Positions 8,186 to 48,817 of a DNA stretch of 64,000 nt are shown in pieces; the first letter of the stretch is position 1, and every line of letters begins with the position of its first letter. The stretch is taken from positions 19,122 to 83,121 of the forward strand of contig JAWZYV010014408.1 of assembly GCA_038373885.1 (NCBI GenBank), read 5' to 3'. This DNA is from Cheiracanthium punctorium. Taxonomy: Eukaryota > Arthropoda > Arachnida > Araneae > Cheiracanthiidae. A program made the translations under genes and the position numbers. The notes under the pieces were generated by a model that saw only the letters and a list, made by a program, of their open reading frames with translations, searched no databases and was not told where the DNA came from.

Positions 8186-8471
8186 CGTGATGTTTCTTAA
8201 GGATTGCTTCCCGTTCTGATGACGGTATGACTAACTGCGCTTCTTCTGAGTCTGCATCCGGGATATAGCGATACAGAACTCCCTGGTTCATAAGAAAACC
8301 TCTCTCAGTCCAATTTGCATATGCTTCTGTTTTTTGGACATCTTCAAACGCTTCAATTATCTTCCTTAGTGATTCATCTGCATGTTGAGCTTCTCGCATA
8401 TCTTTAACATTTCTTGCTGGCATATCAGCGATGACGATACTATCAATTTCACAGTCTCTTGTTCTGGACAC
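8106..8471 (-). pseudogene. Gypsy A linker and integrase N-terminus, out of frame
   Basis: This 121-codon frame carries the stretch that normally joins RNase H to integrase, ending with the histidine pair of the HHCC zinc finger (KKHHDDP, about 8170). The RT/RNase H frame stops being similar near 8460 and this frame takes over; near 8180 the integrase frame takes over in turn. Two compensating frameshifts of one base each would explain it. The region was once a single pol reading frame. Confidence 0.75.
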
Positions 8472-10036
8472 ACTGGTCGAGAAAGCATGTCAGCTATTAC
8501 GTTAGATTTTCCTGGGATATAACAGACTTCTACGTTAAAAGATTGCACTTCCAGTGCCCATCTGGCGAGGCGACCGGTTGGTGATTTGAGGGTAAGAAGC
8601 CATTTCAATGGTTGGTGGTCGGATGCCACAGTAACAAGTGTACCCTCGATGTATCCGCGAAACTTCTTTAACGCCCACGCAACGGCCAATGCTTCCCGTT
8701 CCGTTGTAGAGTAGTTTTTCTCTGCTTGGGTAAGCAGTCTGCTGGCATACTCACTTGGATGCTCTTCAGATCCTTCGCCTTGAAGTAATACGGCTCCGAG
8801 CGCGTAATTACTTGCATCGGTACGTATTATATATGGTTTGGTACCATCCGCTTGCTTCAGAATCGGTGGGGAAATGAGGCATTGTTTTAGAGTTTCGAAA
8901 GCTTTCTGCTGCGAAAAACTCCATTGCCATGATGTGTTCTTTTTTGTTAAATTGCTTAAAGGCCTTGAGATTTCTGCAAAATCTTTTATATAACGTCTGT
9001 ACCATGAGCATGTTTGTAGGAAAGATTTAACTTCTTTTACGTTTTTGGGTGGTGGTATATTCTGGATGGCTGATGTCTTCTCAGGATCTACCTCGATTCC
9101 GTTCTTCTTAATCCAAAATCCTAGGTATTTTACTCTAGACACAGCAAAATGACATTTTTCTCTATTTGCACGAAGTTTAAATAAGAGTAATCTTTGGAAA
9201 ACACTTTTTAGATCTGATATATGTTTTTCAAAAGTTTCTGATAAGACGATTATGTCGTCTAAATACGTAAGAGTTAGGATGTCGCCGAGGCCATTCCTGA
9301 AACGATCCATAAGGCGTTGAAATGTAGCTGGTGCCGTTTTGAGACCCATTGGCATTCTCAGAAATTTAAAGGTTCCAAAAGGACACACGAAGGCTGTTTT
9401 GTCCTGGTCATCCGGATGGATTTGAACTTGGTGGTAACCTGATTGTAAATCTATTGTTGACATAAATGACGTTTGTTTGGCTTCATGGAGAAGCTCATCC
9501 ATTCTGGGTAATGGGTAAGAGTCAGCCACTGTAATTTCGTTTAACTTTCTATAGTCTATGCAAAGACGCACTTTACCATTTGGTTTCGGTACGAGAACCA
9601 CTGGTGAAGCATAAGGAGATTCACACTCCTCGATGATTCCATCTTTCAAAAGCCTATCAAGTTCTTGCTTAAGGAGTTCTTTCTTGACTGGATTCATTCT
9701 ATATGGTGGTACCGCTACTGGTGAGTGGTTGCCGGTATCTATTTTGTGCTGGATGAAAGGGGTTGGTTCTCCCCCTGGACTAAAGATACCTGTAAACTTT
9801 TCTAACAGTTTACATAATTGTAACCTTTCCTCAGTAGATAAGTGACTGCCTTCAGTTTCCTTTAAAACACAAGTGTTCAGTTTAGGAGGTTCGATATCTT
9901 TATCAGATGACCTAGTGCTACAGTTTTGTAAAGGTGAGTCAAAAGTGTCTTTACCTGGCTTACAAGGTGGTACAAATACATCTTTTTCAAATTTGAATCT
10001 TTTCCTAGGATTACAGTTGAAATACCATTTTTTGTT
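8460..10036 (-). pseudogene. Gypsy A reverse transcriptase and RNase H
   Basis: Copies element RNA into DNA and removes the RNA strand. Visible RT motifs: the PYRMNPVKKELL entry region (about 9700), VRLCIDYRKLN (about 9550), FMSTIDLQSGYHQ with the first catalytic aspartate (about 9440), FLRMPMGLKTAP (about 9350) and YLDD (about 9260). RNase H follows with IRTDASNYALG, TEREALAVAW and SDHQPLKWLL, its acidic residues retained. The upstream end is cut by the tRNA-like array: the same 17 bases flank the array, and the protease frame at 12849 continues in register into this frame once one copy is discounted. Before that insertion protease and RT were one frame. Confidence 0.9.
10020..10036. repeat. 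17-bp direct repeat, left copy, flanking the tRNA-like array
   Basis: AAATACCATTTTTTGTT occurs here and at 12849-12865, on either side of the array, and once in the deduced original pol frame. It is therefore a target duplication of 14 to 17 bp; the outer bases are ambiguous because the array end is also T-rich. Confidence 0.85.
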
Positions 10037-10094
10037 AGGCAAGTTGGAGTGTATAGGCTGATTAATTTTATTTTTCACCAACTATGCGAAAAAT

Positions 10095-10163
10095 TCCAGA
10101 GCTGGGATTCGAACCCAGGACTGCCGCAACGTGCGGGTGCTCTACCACTGAGCTACTCTGGGA
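10095..10163 (-). tRNA. tRNA-like gene 1 of array (defective anticodon arm)
   Basis: Acceptor strands TCCCAGAG and CTCTGGA pair over seven bases if one C bulges. The D arm is GCTC/GAGC and the T arm CTGGG/CCCAG with loop TTCGAAT. The A box (TAGCTCAGTGG) and B box (GGTTCGAATCC) match consensus. Only 20 nt lie between the D and T arms, two to three fewer than usual, and the hairpin CCGC-ACGTT-GCGG leaves no normal seven-base anticodon loop. It looks Ala-like in its 5' half. It probably is a Pol III transcript but not a decoding tRNA. TTTTT follows two bases after the 3' end. Confidence 0.65.
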
Positions 10164-10383
10164 CAATTCCCAGATGAAATTTCTCGCATTAGAACCGTTG
10201 GCATTTATCATCTTCCTCTGCAAATCACAGATAGAACAGATGAAATAATTAATTCGCGACAACTCCGTTACGCCGCGGAAATTATATATTTTTAGAAAGT
10301 GATTCCATCAACCTTTCAAGTTATTAGGCAAGTTGGAGTGTATAGGCTGATTAATTTTATTTTTCACCAACTATGCGAAAAAT

Positions 10384-10452
10384 TCCAGAGCTGGGATTCG
10401 AACCCAGGACTGCCGCAACGTGCGGGTGCTCTACCACTGAGCTACTCTGGGA
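10384..10452 (-). tRNA. tRNA-like gene 2 of array
   Basis: Identical by eye to the copy at 10095-10163: intact A and B boxes, shortened anticodon arm, T-run terminator. Confidence 0.65.
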
Positions 10453-10672
10453 CAATTCCCAGATGAAATTTCTCGCATTAGAACCGTTGGCATTTATCAT
10501 CTTCCTCTGCAAATCACAGATAGAACAGATGAAATAATTAATTCGCGACAACTCCGTTACGCCGCGGAAATTATATATTTTTAGAAAGTGATTCCATCAA
10601 CCTTTCAAGTTATTAGGCAAGTTGGAGTGTATAGGCTGATTAATTTTATTTTTCACCAACTATGCGAAAAAT

Positions 10673-10741
10673 TCCAGAGCTGGGATTCGAACCCAGGACT
10701 GCCGCAACGTGCGGGTGCTCTACCACTGAGCTACTCTGGGA
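10673..10741 (-). tRNA. tRNA-like gene 3 of array
   Basis: Identical by eye to the copy at 10095-10163, one 289-bp period further on. Confidence 0.65.
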
Positions 10742-10961
10742 CAATTCCCAGATGAAATTTCTCGCATTAGAACCGTTGGCATTTATCATCTTCCTCTGCA
10801 AATCACAGATAGAACAGATGAAATAATTAATTCGCGACAACTCCGTTACGCCGCGGAAATTATATATTTTTAGAAAGTGATTCCATCAACCTTTCAAGTT
10901 ATTAGGCAAGTTGGAGTGTATAGGCTGATTAATTTTATTTTTCACCAACTATGCGAAAAAT

Positions 10962-11030
10962 TCCAGAGCTGGGATTCGAACCCAGGACTGCCGCAACGTG
11001 CGGGTGCTCTACCACTGAGCTACTCTGGGA
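10962..11030 (-). tRNA. tRNA-like gene 4 of array
   Basis: Identical by eye to the copy at 10095-10163. Confidence 0.65.
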
Positions 11031-11250
11031 CAATTCCCAGATGAAATTTCTCGCATTAGAACCGTTGGCATTTATCATCTTCCTCTGCAAATCACAGATA
11101 GAACAGATGAAATAATTAATTCGCGACAACTCCGTTACGCCGCGGAAATTATATATTTTTAGAAAGTGATTCCATCAACCTTTCAAGTTATTAGGCAAGT
11201 TGGAGTGTATAGGCTGATTAATTTTATTTTTCACCAACTATGCGAAAAAT

Positions 11251-11319
11251 TCCAGAGCTGGGATTCGAACCCAGGACTGCCGCAACGTGCGGGTGCTCTA
11301 CCACTGAGCTACTCTGGGA
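11251..11319 (-). tRNA. tRNA-like gene 5 of array
   Basis: Identical by eye to the copy at 10095-10163. Confidence 0.65.
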
Positions 11320-11539
11320 CAATTCCCAGATGAAATTTCTCGCATTAGAACCGTTGGCATTTATCATCTTCCTCTGCAAATCACAGATAGAACAGATGAA
11401 ATAATTAATTCGCGACAACTCCGTTACGCCGCGGAAATTATATATTTTTAGAAAGTGATTCCATCAACCTTTCAAGTTATTAGGCAAGTTGGAGTGTATA
11501 GGCTGATTAATTTTATTTTTCACCAACTATGCGAAAAAT

Positions 11540-11608
11540 TCCAGAGCTGGGATTCGAACCCAGGACTGCCGCAACGTGCGGGTGCTCTACCACTGAGCTA
11601 CTCTGGGA
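11540..11608 (-). tRNA. tRNA-like gene 6 of array, next to the inversion point
   Basis: Identical by eye to the copy at 10095-10163. It is the last minus-strand copy; its upstream flank runs into the palindrome centre at 11701-11728, so it is divergent from copy 7. Confidence 0.65.
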
Positions 11609-11700
11609 CAATTCCCAGATGAAATTTCTCGCATTAGAACCGTTGGCATTTATCATCTTCCTCTGCAAATCACAGATAGAACAGATGAAATAATTAATTC

Positions 11701-11728
11701 GCGACAACTCCGACAACGGAGTTGTCGC
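11701..11728. repeat. Palindrome centre of the array
   Basis: GCGACAACTCCG, then ACAA, then CGGAGTTGTCGC. Two arrays are joined head to head here with a 4-base spacer. GACAAC occurs at 11702-11707 and again as the junction GACAAC at 11712-11717, a microhomology that could have seeded the inversion. Confidence 0.85.
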
Positions 11729-11820
11729 GAATTAATTATTTCATCTGTTCTATCTGTGATTTGCAGAGGAAGATGATAAATGCCAACGGTTCTAATGCGA
11801 GAAATTTCATCTGGGAATTG

Positions 11821-11889
11821 TCCCAGAGTAGCTCAGTGGTAGAGCACCCGCACGTTGCGGCAGTCCTGGGTTCGAATCCCAGCTCTGGA
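11821..11889 (+). tRNA. tRNA-like gene 7 of array (first plus-strand copy)
   Basis: Same 69-base sequence as the minus-strand copies, now in plus orientation. A box, B box and T-run terminator are all present; the anticodon arm is short. Confidence 0.65.
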
Positions 11890-12109
11890 ATTTTTCGCAT
11901 AGTTGGTGAAAAATAAAATTAATCAGCCTATACACTCCAACTTGCCTAATAACTTGAAAGGTTGATGGAATCACTTTCTAAAAATATATAATTTCCGCGG
12001 CGTAACGGAGTTGTCGCGAATTAATTATTTCATCTGTTCTATCTGTGATTTGCAGAGGAAGATGATAAATGCCAACGGTTCTAATGCGAGAAATTTCATC
12101 TGGGAATTG

Positions 12110-12178
12110 TCCCAGAGTAGCTCAGTGGTAGAGCACCCGCACGTTGCGGCAGTCCTGGGTTCGAATCCCAGCTCTGGA
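12110..12178 (+). tRNA. tRNA-like gene 8 of array
   Basis: Identical by eye to the copy at 11821-11889. Confidence 0.65.
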
Positions 12179-12398
12179 ATTTTTCGCATAGTTGGTGAAA
12201 AATAAAATTAATCAGCCTATACACTCCAACTTGCCTAATAACTTGAAAGGTTGATGGAATCACTTTCTAAAAATATATAATTTCCGCGGCGTAACGGAGT
12301 TGTCGCGAATTAATTATTTCATCTGTTCTATCTGTGATTTGCAGAGGAAGATGATAAATGCCAACGGTTCTAATGCGAGAAATTTCATCTGGGAATTG

Positions 12399-12467
12399 TC
12401 CCAGAGTAGCTCAGTGGTAGAGCACCCGCACGTTGCGGCAGCCCTGGGTTCGAATCCCAGCTCTGGA
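12399..12467 (+). tRNA. tRNA-like gene 9 of array, single variant
   Basis: Differs from the other nine copies by C for T at 12442, in the variable region just before the T arm. This is the only difference I saw between units. Confidence 0.65.
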
Positions 12468-12687
12468 ATTTTTCGCATAGTTGGTGAAAAATAAAATTAA
12501 TCAGCCTATACACTCCAACTTGCCTAATAACTTGAAAGGTTGATGGAATCACTTTCTAAAAATATATAATTTCCGCGGCGTAACGGAGTTGTCGCGAATT
12601 AATTATTTCATCTGTTCTATCTGTGATTTGCAGAGGAAGATGATAAATGCCAACGGTTCTAATGCGAGAAATTTCATCTGGGAATTG

Positions 12688-12756
12688 TCCCAGAGTAGCT
12701 CAGTGGTAGAGCACCCGCACGTTGCGGCAGTCCTGGGTTCGAATCCCAGCTCTGGA
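12688..12756 (+). tRNA. tRNA-like gene 10 of array
   Basis: Identical by eye to the copy at 11821-11889. The unit ends 92 bp downstream, where the gypsy pol target repeat begins. Confidence 0.65.
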
Positions 12757-12848
12757 ATTTTTCGCATAGTTGGTGAAAAATAAAATTAATCAGCCTATAC
12801 ACTCCAACTTGCCTAATAACTTGAAAGGTTGATGGAATCACTTTCTAA

Positions 12849-12865
12849 AAATACCATTTTTTGTT
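12849..12865. repeat. 17-bp direct repeat, right copy, flanking the array
   Basis: AAATACCATTTTTTGTT, identical to 10020-10036. See the left copy for the interpretation as a target duplication. Confidence 0.85.
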
Positions 12866-14284
12866 TTGGGTATCTAAGCTAATACCAGCTTTGGATAAAA
12901 AATCAGTACCAAGGAGGGTACGATTATCTTTAGCTGTCGGTAACGCGTATATTGTAGTAGGAATTCTTTTCCCCATTAGTTCAATGTCTACATCGGTGTT
13001 ATAAACTTCAGAGAACTTCGACATTCCGTCCGCGAGTGTTACATTTAAATTTACTTTATGAAAATTTATCCCTTGTTCTCGGAGGAGATTATACAGGGTT
13101 TCACCAGCAACAGTGTGGCTAGCCCCAGTGTCAGCACATGCTAGACCCCACATACCATTTACTTTAATCTTCATTAACATTGCCTGGGGTTCTTGTATCG
13201 CACACGTTTGAAATTTCAAGCAGCTAACCTGGGCGGAATCAACTTTAGCGTTTGGCGTACACGTAGGACATTTTGCCTTTACGAAACCCGGTTTCCCACA
13301 GCCATAGCAGCTAATAGGTATTTCATAATTTTTACTAACAGTTCTATTTGTTGAGTATTTATGATTAACACCATTCTTACAATTTTTAAATTCATTACTG
13401 AACTTGTACTTAGAATTTTCCTTATGTTGTTCTTGTTTTGTGTTTCTACCTTTTAGGTTTCTAATTTCTTCGTAAGAATCTAGTTTATCAACTAAAGAAA
13501 CTGGATCGTTCCACTCGCTCCAGTGGTCTAAAAAATGTTCTTTGTAATCAGGGGGACATTTCTTTTTTATTTGACCTGAAATTATTAGATCTTTCAACTG
13601 ATCAAACGTAGTGACATTCAGCTCATTGAGCCAACCTTCAAAAAAATTTCTTAAGTCATAGAAGTAATCTCTCCACGTAGAGTCTGGACTTTTCCTGTGT
13701 TGGACGAAGGATTGTCTAAATTTTTCGGCACTCATCTTGAATCGGCGTAATAAAATCTTTTTTATTTCCGCATACTCCTGTGGGTTATTCTGAGAATCCG
13801 ATTCTATTGCAATTAACTTTGAAATTTCAATAGGTAAAAGCCCGATCAGGTATACTACCCATTTTGATTCCGGTATTTTCAAAAAAGTCAATTGTTTCTC
13901 AAAAAGGTTTAAAAATGTACTAATGTCATCTACCTTTGAGTCAAATTGAGGATTTAACCCCTTAATTTTAAATTTAGATACATCTGAATTACTAGGTGTA
14001 AGAACGGTTTCTGTTTCTGTAGCATGGGTTATATTTTGTAACTTAAGTTTCTCTAATTCAAACATACGGTCATCATTTTCCTTTTGAATTAATCGCGCTT
14101 CATTTTCTTTCCTTTCAGTTATCAAATTATCGAGCAATTCTTTAGTGAATTCTTCATCATACCCTGCACTTTTAAGAATTGCATTCTTTAAATCTATTAT
14201 TTTGTAATCCTCTTGAATTGCGATGTTAAGCTCACTGGCTAAATTAACTAGATCTTGCTTCTTTCCTTTAGCAAGGTACGCCAT
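12849..14284 (-). pseudogene. Gypsy A Gag and protease, cut by the array
   Basis: An open frame of nearly 480 codons starting at the ATG at 14284. The N-terminal part is charged and helical (KGKKQDLVNLASELNI), followed by a capsid-like region with the gag signature EIKKILLRRFKMSAEKFRQ (about 13760). Then comes a nucleocapsid zinc knuckle CYGCGKPGFVKAKC (about 13270-13310), in which the expected histidine is phenylalanine, and an aspartic protease with CADTGAS (about 13120). The frame runs into the array after DTQNKKWYF. Gag packages the RNA; protease cleaves the polyprotein. The related but more damaged gag at 61641 has the same domain order. The frame was not otherwise broken before the array arrived. 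Confidence 0.88.
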
Positions 14285-15039
14285 AATTCAACTTTTATAA
14301 TATCTAAATATTCTCTAAAAGTATTTATACCAATTTATTCATTTAACCAAAAATAAAATTTTTGAAAACACTTCGGCACATGAATAACAATTCCACTTAA
14401 AGTATATTTCAATTACTAGATAAATCTACTCAAATAAGAACCCTTGTTTCTCTTTAAAGCAATCAGCTTTAAGCTATGAAATGAAGTTTATCTTCTTTTA
14501 AACAACAACAGAATGAAATAAAATGAGATCACTGATTCACTTTATACAATGTCTACAGCTCAAGACAAAACAAAACTTTATTAGCGGCAACGGCGCCAAA
14601 AGTCAGCACATCTGTCTGCTGAGAACAGAAAGCAGAAAAATAAACACTTGACAGATGGGAATTATTATACTCTTATAGTTTTCAGGGTGTAAACGAAATT
14701 CTTGAGAACAACTTTTTTTCAGGATGAAAAAACATTTTTCCTTTCTTTTCAAAACTTAGAATTCAGATATGAAAATTATTCAGATTTTCAAGCTTCAGGC
14801 ACCAAAGGAACTGGCATACGTATATTAAATTTGATCTGGATGATCAAAACAAAGCTAAACAAGTATTTTCTTCGATCCGGATGATCAGAATGAACTGAAT
14901 TCAGGGTGAATTCTAAACCAAAATTTTTCTTATATTTGCCAGGATGACAAAATTAAGAAAGTTCCTTGAGTGCTTGATCAAAAAGAAGAAAAAATCACTT
15001 ATCTGCAGATATATCCTTTGTCATTGTTCGGGCTTTCGG
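14285..15039 (-). other. Gypsy A untranslated leader
   Basis: About 750 bp between the primer site and the gag ATG, without a plausible frame. Its GATCCGGATGATCA-type and CAGGATGA-type motifs recur loosely. It may hold packaging signals, but nothing specific can be shown. Confidence 0.5.
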
Positions 15040-39340: not shown

Positions 39341-40000
39341 CTAAATATATTTTATTTGTGATAAATCTGTTTCTGACATAGAATTATCAGTTACTACTCT
39401 TAAAATTTTAAAACCAGCCTTTTCCACATTTTCTATGACAGAAACTGTTAATTTATGTAGCTCATTGCCAGTCAATTGGTTTGTGAAGAAATATGCAACA
39501 GGAATCCTATAATCAGTTGATAGCCCTTTAAAAAGGAAACACAAAAGATTATTTGCCAACCTGTCACTGATTCCTATTTTTTCAATTTCAGTATCACAAC
39601 TACCTAAAAACATATCAAGCTTTCTGTCATACATTAATTTTGCTTTGATTGCCATTTCATCTATTATTAATGAGCCAATTTTTTCTTCTTCATGTGTTAA
39701 GTTTTTAAATTCATGATGAAGTCGCAACTGTATTAATGAAGTTATCCCAGTTTCTCCTGTTGAGTATCCAAGATACTTCTTTAATGTGCATTTGTGAGGA
39801 AGATTAAAAATACCCATGTTTCTAACAAAATCATATCCTTTAGGTGAACGTTTCTGCCACAAAATGTAAAATTTTAGAGCTGTGCTATTCAGAGTAACTT
39901 TTTTCTTGCCATAATTTGAAATTTGCTCCATCAGCATAATAGCAGACATCTTATTTTCTGACTTTTCCTTTATTATTTTTTTTAGTTGCCGCTCTTCCAT
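39341..40000 (-). pseudogene. P-element transposase, middle part (THAP9-like)
   Basis: Blocks such as LPHKCTLKKYLGY, IGSLIIDEMAIKAKLMYDRK and IPVAYFFTNQLTGNELH match the helical and RNase H-like part of P-element/THAP9 transposases. The IDEM aspartate (about 39655) would be the first catalytic residue. The frame ends after VVTDNSMSE, where the second core block should begin, and no further similarity is seen down to 38640. It was joined to the THAP domain frame upstream through a coiled region (about 40010-40170) now broken by frameshifts. Transposase activity is lost. Confidence 0.8.
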
Positions 40001-40094
40001 ACTTTCTTTCTTTCTTCCTGCTTTTAAGGCAGAAATTTTATTTTTTATTTTTTAATTCTGTTCTGCAATGTAGAATTAACTTTCCTTAGAGCTC

Positions 40095-40577
40095 TCAACC
40101 GGTTGTGAAGCTTTTTAGTTGTAAGTGTTGCTTTCTTTTTTTGCACTGTAACATTACAATTAGCAGAACTACTTTCAATTGGTTCTGCCGGTAAATTAAC
40201 TGAGGATTCTCAGAATTCTTTCCTAAACAGCACTTTTTCAATACTGTATTTTCACAAAATCTTGAACTGGGCGACTTCCTTTTTTTGGATGATCCTGGAA
40301 GTTTGTACGATGGATATCCTGGGAAAATACTCGGAATAGCACTTGGAACCAGCCTTTTTCTCTTCGTGCTTTTGCTAAAATCATCATTTGTGAAATGTTT
40401 TTCACACACTACCGAATGATCTGTAGATTTCCACAAACTTCCCCGTTTTTCTCCTTCCTTGGATATAGCATTTATCCAAGCTGCTCTAATCTCTAAATTT
40501 GATGGAAATTCAAAGAAACTTGTTTTTATAGATCCTCCAGCTATCGATTTACAAATCGGTACACAACAGTACTTCAT
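40095..40577 (-). pseudogene. P-element transposase THAP domain
   Basis: Starts at ATG 40577. MKYCCVPICKS, then CEKHF about 45 residues on, form the C2CH zinc site; LVPSAIPSIFPG is the AVPTIF-like end of a THAP domain. This domain binds the subterminal DNA of the element. The frame then runs on with basic sequence and ends at 40095 after leaving the true frame. The region between this and 40000 encodes a leucine-rich coil in a different frame. Confidence 0.85.
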
Positions 40578-40776
40578 TGTAGCGTTTTATTAGCGTTTAA
40601 ACGAACACAAATAAGACTCAGTTTAGCATGTAAACAAATGGAAATTCGGGATGTGTTTTCCCCGGTAAACGCGCCATCTAGCGGCTAGAAATAAACGTAT
40701 TTTTGTCTACCTTTTTAGCTTTGAAAAACGGCCAAAGTAACAGGCTGGAGATAATCCCCGTAGACTACGACACAAC

Positions 40777-47332: not shown

Positions 47333-48817
47333 TCTATCTATATAAATAAAATTAGACTTTTGTCTGTACATTTCTTGGAATTCAAAAATTTTACAATTTC
47401 TATCCGTTTCAAGCACCCGGGATTCCGATGCGACTCTCAAAAAAAAGTTTGTCTGTCTGTCATTCTGTCCTTCTGTCATTCTGTCATTCTGTCCGTGACG
47501 CTTTTTTTGTTTAAGCATCACGTAAAAACGACTGAAGCGAATGATATGAAATTTTGTGTCATGATAGGTGGTCACTCAACTTAAAACATAGGCGTCGAAT
47601 TTTTTAAAAATCTTGATTAGATTTTCCGATTTTGCGAAAATCGTTTCAAACTGCGTAAATTTGTGTTCAAGCATCACGCATAAACGACTGAAGCGAATGA
47701 TATGAAATTGGGTGTCATGATAGGTATTCACTCAACTTAAAACATAGGCGTCCAATTTAAAAAAAATCTTGATTGGAGTTTGAGATTTTGCGAAAATCCT
47801 TTCAAACTGCGTAAATTTGTGTTCAAGCATCACGTAAAAACGACTAAAGCGAATGATATGAAATTGGGTGTCATGATAGGCGGTCCCTCAACTTAAAACA
47901 TAGGCGTCGAATTTAAAAAAAATCTTGATTGGATTTTCCGATTTTGCGAAAATCGTTTCAAACTGCGTAAATTTGTGCTCAAGCATCACGCAAAAACGAC
48001 TGAAGCGAATGATATGAAATTGGGTGTCATGATAGGTGGTCACTCAACTTAAACTATAAGCATCTAATTAAAAAAAATCGATCAGATTTCGAGATTTTGT
48101 GAAAATCGTTTAAAACTGAGTGAATCTTTGTTCCCGCATTACGTAATAACGACTAAAGCGAATGATATGAAATTTGGTCACACGATAGATGGTTGCTCAA
48201 CATAAACTATAGGAGTCCAATTTTTTAAACATTTTTATTAGATTTTGAGATTTTGTGAAAATTCTCTCAAAATGCGTTTATATTTCTTCAAACATCACGT
48301 AATAACGACTAATACGAATGATACGAAATTTAGTGATATGATAGGTAGTTGCTAATCTTAATTTATAGGCGTTGAATTTTTAAAATATTTTGATTACATT
48401 TTGAGATTTTGCGAAAATCGTTTTAAAATGCTGAAAATTTGTTCCAGTATCACGAAATAAAGATTGCAGGGAATGAAACGAATTTGGTTGACAGGATAGG
48501 TTGTCACTCAACTTAAATTCTAGGCTTCCATTTTTTCAAAAATGTTGATTGAATTTTTAGATTTTGCGAAAATTATTTCAATATGCGTCAATATTCGTTC
48601 GCGCATCACATAATTACGACTAATGCGAATGAAATGATATTACTTAGTTACTCTCTAACCTGTAATATTTTAACAATACATAAAAATTATAACTTCGCTT
48701 TCTTTACTTTGGCAACATACTACATCCATTCGGTGTACTCATACAATGCTGACGAAAGATCTTGCTTTTTTGGAAATTTGCATTCACTAACCCGTCGAGG
48801 ACGGGTACTTCAGCTAG
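47333..48817 (+). mobile_element. Non-autonomous Helitron with 156-bp tandem repeats
   Basis: 5' end TCTATCTATATAAATAAAAT preceded by A; 3' end with hairpin CCCGTC-GAG-GACGGG (48791-48805), eight bases, then CTAG and T. This is the textbook A/T insertion of a Helitron. The inside is eight tandem copies of a unit starting near GCATCACGTAAAAACGACT, at about 47515, 47671, 47827, 47983, 48136, 48292, 48447 and 48603, which diverge towards the 3' end. No Rep/helicase frame. Confidence 0.9.

Follow-up and report, generated by a model that had tools for sequence, protein, structure and literature searches.

A short tRNA-bearing tandem element of the spider Cheiracanthium punctorium that probably integrates by the route of Penelope-like elements

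The window, by which we mean the whole stretch of 64,000 nucleotides analysed from the Cheiracanthium punctorium assembly, carries at 10037-12848 an insertion of 2812 bp, the bounds of which are set by an exact 17-bp target duplication, AAATACCATTTTTTGTT, at 10020-10036 on the left and at 12849-12865 on the right. The insertion consists of two arms of head-to-tail units. The left arm (10037-11712, minus strand) holds 5.8 units of 289 bp with their sense leftward, that is outward, and its outer end, of type A, falls at about unit position 132 (position 0 being the 5' end of the tRNA-like part of the unit); the right arm (11715-12848, plus strand) holds 3.9 units with their sense rightward, again outward, and its outer end, of type B, falls at about position 166. 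The two bases at the central head-to-head junction (11713-11714) belong to neither run. In both Tandem Repeats Finder and our own comparison, the left run extends over 10035-11712 (5.81 units without a mismatch; Tandem Repeats Finder 5.8 copies, 100% matches) and the right run over 11715-12853 (3.94 units with one mismatch; 3.9 copies, 99%). A tRNA-like domain recurs six times on the minus strand (10094-10162, 10383-10451, 10672-10740, 10961-11029, 11250-11318 and 11539-11607; 51 bits each against Rfam RF00005) and four times on the plus strand (11822-11890, 12111-12179, 12400-12468 and 12689-12757; 50.2-51 bits). ARAGORN and RF00005 each find these ten, as the original prediction had counted them by strand, and its description of a 289-bp unit with copies identical except for one base also holds, the sole mismatch being a C for T at 12442.

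The array had further been placed inside a retrotransposon, and domain searches agree: with its 17-bp duplication it lies between the gag/protease frame of a gypsy element (12845-14287, minus strand), which the insertion interrupts, and, on the far side, the RT/RNase H frame (8366-10081, minus strand), the open frame of which begins within the array. Both gypsy frames read KKWYF at the duplicated target, and the best match of the gypsy RT was an unnamed protein; of the named matches among the 120 listed, most came from two spiders, Trichonephila clavipes and Araneus ventricosus, so that this one element, taken by itself, would suggest an orb-weaver-like spider as the probable host. Neither the target duplication nor the unlike outer ends of the array had been part of the prediction. 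Elsewhere in the window we observed a second tandem array (47504-48641; 156-bp unit, 7.3 copies, 81% matches) and a THAP domain frame adjoining a P-element-like transposase frame (39341-40586).

Searching the assembly (2.53 Gb in 15,171 contigs) with the unit returned at least 207 matches, the best 40 of 1918 candidates being scored and the true number being higher. One region was taken from each of the 38 other contigs among the matches listed, and one of these (L024) was left out because the contig end cuts its array, which gives an analysed set of 37 arrays plus the window, 38 in all; they are the arrays closest to the window unit, and older families may differ in behaviour. The many loci, with target duplications of their own and varied copy number, bear out the earlier proposal of a mobile array. 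Unit length ranges from 289 to 302 bp across arrays, with 41% GC, and the common family unit has 291 bp and an anticodon loop of 7 nt. Twenty-nine arrays are two-armed with both outer ends readable, seven are one-armed (L010, L013, L027, L034, L035, L042 and L044), and two are interrupted by a repeat: L016, in which one of two arms contains the nested repeat, and L046, interrupted by a repeat of the same kind. An additional two-armed array at the edge of L042 is cut and was left out of the count.

Several loci show features of their own. A repeat of about 1.2 kb with TG...CA ends, 90-93% alike between copies, lies in or beside arrays at L016:1946-3155, L025:3669-4869 and L046:558-1496; wherever both of its flanks can be seen they show a duplication of 5-6 bp, and it is probably a solo LTR. 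Two one-armed arrays, L013 (three units, starting at position 136 and ending at 132) and L042:1481-2064 (two units, starting at 134 and ending at 135), comprise whole turns of the unit and have no clear target duplication. Phase jumps within one arm occur at L011:2504-3040 and L038:2812-4215, and a 282-bp stretch within an arm of L030 (1581-1862) has no match to the unit.

The arrays follow a strict architecture. In all 30 arrays with both arms, each arm has its tRNA-like sense directed outward, and each of 29 arrays has one outer end of type A and one of type B, an outcome with a chance of about 2 in 10^9 if the two ends were independent and equally probable. End A lies at unit position 130-139 (about AACTTGCCTAA) and end B at 164-174 (about TCACTTTCTAA plus a few A/T), leaving an interval of about 35 nt between them, and end A is the left end of 14 of the 29 arrays and the right end of the other 15. 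Exact target duplications of 10-17 bp (median 13), different in sequence from array to array, flank 28 of 29, the two-armed L018 being the one in which a duplication was not found. When the left flank of one array was compared with the right flank of another, only 12 of 812 pairs reached 9 bp, the longest being 10. The duplications are 79% AT, compared with 68% in the flanks. None of the seven one-armed arrays has a duplication directly at both of its ends; L027 and L044 contain candidates at an offset.

The inner junctions join differing unit positions, with overlaps or with up to 48 filler bases, and that of L043 is a patchwork of about 60 bases made of short pieces of the unit. We found 21 of 58 inner ends within positions 39-79 where about 8 are expected (binomial p 2e-5, for a range chosen post hoc); this range takes in the 3' half of the tRNA-like domain, with its palindromic T-arm, and the sequence just beyond. 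The palindrome makes the exact position of a junction uncertain, and its complementarity could help two antisense cDNAs to be joined. Arms exceed one unit in 47 of 58 cases, and the unit sequence per array totals 436-3264 bp.

Sequence variation within arrays points to a small template copied many times. For 57 complete units from 21 arrays, divergence was 0.60% within an arm, 0.65% between the arms of one array and 2.43% between arrays. In the window array all six left and all four right units carry C288T and a deletion of 2 nt in the anticodon loop; judged by array majority, none of the 37 other arrays has C288T and 2 of 37 have a gap at this position of the loop, while among the 49 other complete units C288T occurs in one, a 1-nt gap in one and the full 2-nt deletion in none. 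That the two variants occupy all ten units of both arms argues that one small template was copied repeatedly, and since a variant born in a single unit comes to fill ten, a one-to-many step is needed, for which a circle is the simplest form. The suggestion of rolling-circle copying made at the outset fits these data, with an array copied from one small template and variants fixed in both arms. Where there are at least two units per arm, eight rare variants have become fixed in both arms, compared with two in a single arm; allowing one unit per arm, the figures are 13 in both and 80 in one, a class in which later mutation looks alike. Of the 301 variants recorded in a set of 13 arrays, 240 occur in one unit only, as expected for mutation after insertion, 18 in all units and 43 in between. 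In two arrays, L028 and L022, two templates are combined in a mosaic: nine variants are shared by the three outermost right units of L028 and missing from its inner right and its left units, and L022 has a similar block. Copying thus usually keeps to a single short template, with an occasional switch.

The tRNA-like domain reaches 57.5 bits against RF00005 in other arrays, and the family unit is called as tRNA-Asn(GTT), with a C at the place where we would expect U33. The anticodon arm had been described as defective, which is correct for the window units with their 2-nt deletion and does not extend to the family, none of 49 other complete units having the full deletion; the short loop is peculiar to the window array. 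Within the unit we recognised by eye what we take to be an A box, a B box and a T-run. The run of five T at positions 71-75 directly follows the tRNA-like part, and at positions 70-75 none of 228 cells varies in the array majorities, which says little given that 2-3 changes are expected at the average rate of 1.1%. A Pol III transcript normally terminates at a run of five T. Because this run lies ahead of the start sites A and B, only a Pol III transcript that continues through the stop could act as template. The tRNA-like domain might serve as an internal promoter or assist RNA processing.

The original prediction had seen features of SINEs, tRNA clusters and satellites combined, and knew of no named family to match. 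With tRNA-derived SINEs the unit shares the tRNA-like head and sequence matches to putative A and B boxes, and it differs in being tandem and mostly inverted, with outer ends fixed at two positions, with no A-rich tail among the array ends listed and with the T5 run within the unit; the copies are thus not dispersed single units with one 3' tail. Set beside a tRNA gene cluster, the array consists of units that are called as tRNA-Asn(GTT) in the family and lack two loop nucleotides in the window, and set beside a satellite, it has transposed with a target duplication. That this combination belongs to no known kind was not supported: head-to-head geometry, target duplications and, on one of two inverted ends, a tail of 30-40 bp are published features of Penelope-like elements (PLEs) in passages of PMC3846280 and PMC11167929, and short tandem non-autonomous retrozymes have already been proposed, in the relevant part of PMC7229834, to use PLEs.

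Passages of PMC7229834 and PMC7761336 describe metazoan retrozymes as tandemly repeated units, 150-450 bp long, that carry type I hammerheads, are produced in the form of circular RNAs and have been proposed to rely on the help of PLEs. With the non-LTR retrozymes of those passages our element shares non-coding tandem units of low GC in this size range (289-302 bp), duplications longer than 4 bp and a suspected dependence on PLEs. No hammerhead was detected at the Rfam gathering score in the window or at 39 loci, nor up to E 10 in 10010-10700, and the family unit has no intact hammerhead core motif; the 126 Rfam matches over the 39 loci are all tRNA, with no other ribozyme. Retrozymes are defined by the hammerhead, so the element should not be filed among them, and those passages (PMC7229834, PMC7761336) do not mention inverted arrays of two arms with two types of end. 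It looks as if the element works in a retrozyme-like way, but without a ribozyme. The excerpts of PMC6685494 on heliconiine butterflies describe short non-autonomous elements assigned to Penelope, which resemble ours in being short, in lack of autonomy and in that assignment; neither a tRNA-like domain nor an inverted tandem array is mentioned in them. A tRNA-bearing, ribozyme-less PLE array was not found in the titles and abstracts of open-licence papers, which is weak evidence of absence. Exact stretches of 23-31 bases from the unit had no match in viral contigs, nor had one such stretch in bacterial and archaeal genome contigs, sets from which near relatives of the window's genome were possibly excluded.

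The closest parallels are with Penelope/Poseidon-type PLEs. Parts of PMC3846280 describe a bdelloid PLE in which the full element is bounded by inverted pseudo-LTRs (pLTRs) with a 9-bp duplication, as well as inverted pLTRs with 9- and 10-bp duplications and an optional 31-bp tail on one inverted copy, and interpret inverted structures with palindromes as self-priming. According to passages of PMC11167929, both strands of the target are cut and extended by the purified PLE of a lizard, with reverse transcription starting alike on the two strands at two adjacent internal sites whose interval forms the tail. The arrays share with these elements the head-to-head inverted terminal parts, the target duplications, tandem copies and the tail on one end, the A-B interval of about 35 nt fitting a tail of 30-40 bp (PMC3846280, PMC11167929, in the same passages). 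They differ in having no reading frame and no hammerhead motif, and in being made of a 291-bp unit with a tRNA-like domain; the unit, at 289-302 bp, is too short for the RT and GIY-YIG frame of an autonomous PLE. Their targets seem AT-rich as in PLEs, and the ATT cut motif of the lizard element is only partly present: of 28 ends of each type, 3 A ends and 9 B ends have it, where a background of 3.9% would give about one.

PLEs are abundant in the C. punctorium assembly. A generic query with PLE RT, for which 134 of 7530 candidates were scored, gave at least ten inverted neighbour pairs within 6 kb, all ten outward, and at least three direct pairs about 3.0 kb apart, the intervening DNA being read for one of these (L085). 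A second PLE type with an N-terminal GIY-YIG domain, which we take to be Naiad-like, is also plentiful; 27 of 30 GIY-YIG loci fall in two strand groups of this family, and two of the 30 (L047 and L048, on one contig) read unlike PLEs and were set aside. The family (L056, L065, L076 with L077, L078 and L081-L084) is young and has a frame of 851-866 aa; the three copies read are 96-98% alike over most of their length. Comparison of the 866-aa protein with solved structures yielded two chance-level matches only. As donors of the unit sequence we considered both the Naiad-like PLE (866 aa, N-terminal GIY-YIG) and a resident PLE with C-terminal GIY-YIG (L085, one stretch of 2.2 kb), and rejected each, there being no similarity beyond chance; against the PLE pieces read, the best match of the unit had E 0.03 with lenient scoring, and among them no autonomous partner with the start-site region of the unit was found.

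We consider it probable that the family is a non-autonomous retroelement of about 291 bp, integrated by a PLE-type RT/endonuclease from a short template copied repeatedly, which would most likely be a circular RNA. An RNA of the tRNA-like sense strand would be made, and T-rich DNA is cut on both strands 10-17 bp apart, as the duplications attest, presumably by a PLE-type enzyme. Each cut strand would then prime copying of the RNA, one at site A and the other at site B, in keeping with the ends observed. Both cDNAs being antisense, the finished arms point outward, which is the geometry found. Copying spans from part of a unit to more than seven units, which would require a circle or the reuse of one unit, and the free ends would finally be joined in variable ways, through overlap at the T-arm palindrome, a short overlap or filler, as in the junctions described above. 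Self-priming of one cDNA was rejected because a copy folded back on itself would have two ends of the same type, and the observed ends are A and B. More tentatively, we hypothesise that a ribozyme-free circular RNA with a tRNA-like domain could serve as the single template for a PLE dimer, one subunit starting at A and the other at B and each travelling round this one circle; a complete insertion would then be an inverted outward pair of rolling-circle copies, with the tRNA-like domain, instead of a hammerhead, making or closing the circle. Without a ribozyme there is no known route to such a circle. Other observations that speak against our preferred reading are the chance-level similarity to the PLE pieces read, the mosaic arrays L028 and L022, the seven one-armed arrays, L018 with two arms and no duplication, the partial ATT motif and, when one unit per arm is allowed, the excess of rare variants confined to one arm.

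The absence of a ribozyme agrees with a somewhat unlikely alternative, in which integration is of PLE type and the template is a linear multi-unit transcript of an older array. The authors of the lizard study propose a multi-copy mRNA, and unprocessed RNA was the main substrate in vitro (PMC11167929, in part); the mosaic arms of L028 and L022 could also be multimers of unlike units. A linear transcript, however, only transmits homogeneity that already exists, and a variant of one unit would still have to reach all ten units of both arms, while the 240 of 301 variants confined to one unit are those expected after insertion. Mobilisation by a LINE, with the two arms arising by twin priming as in L1, is improbable. 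L1 twin priming gives outward arms as well, its second priming site being variable, and duplications varying over 10-17 bp at T-rich cut sites would suit it, but two fixed outer ends about 35 nt apart, each present once in all 29 arrays, and the lack of an A-rich tail in the ends listed would not.

Long inverted repeats built of direct repeats, with duplications at their ends, also recall a foldback-type DNA transposon or the insertion of a concatemer from a DNA circle; the varying length of the duplication (10-17 bp), the different sequences of the two ends, the variation of inner junction and copy number between loci and a 291-bp unit too small for a transposase make this very improbable. 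We give still less credence to a single inserted unit expanded later by unequal exchange, in effect a young satellite, which would account for identical tandem units but hardly for fixed A and B ends at a duplication in independent arrays, for inverted arms with the same rare variants, or for arrays that are short and have each their own duplication. Least of all do we suspect an artefact: near-identical units are hard to assemble, yet the same architecture recurs at 28 other loci with differing junctions and lengths, 27 of them with their own duplication.

Integration of PLE type from a repeatedly copied short template, as we prefer to read these arrays, bears on how PLEs insert. How priming on both strands and joining proceed, and why the tail is one-sided, is left open in the relevant passages of PMC3846280 and PMC11167929, one of which favours self-priming; a template of 291 nt and 29 young insertions yield a strict rule of one start site per target strand, which argues against self-priming. 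By analogy, the family also lends support to the view that short tandem elements of animals use the PLE machinery, and its lack of a hammerhead suggests that such elements need not always contain one.
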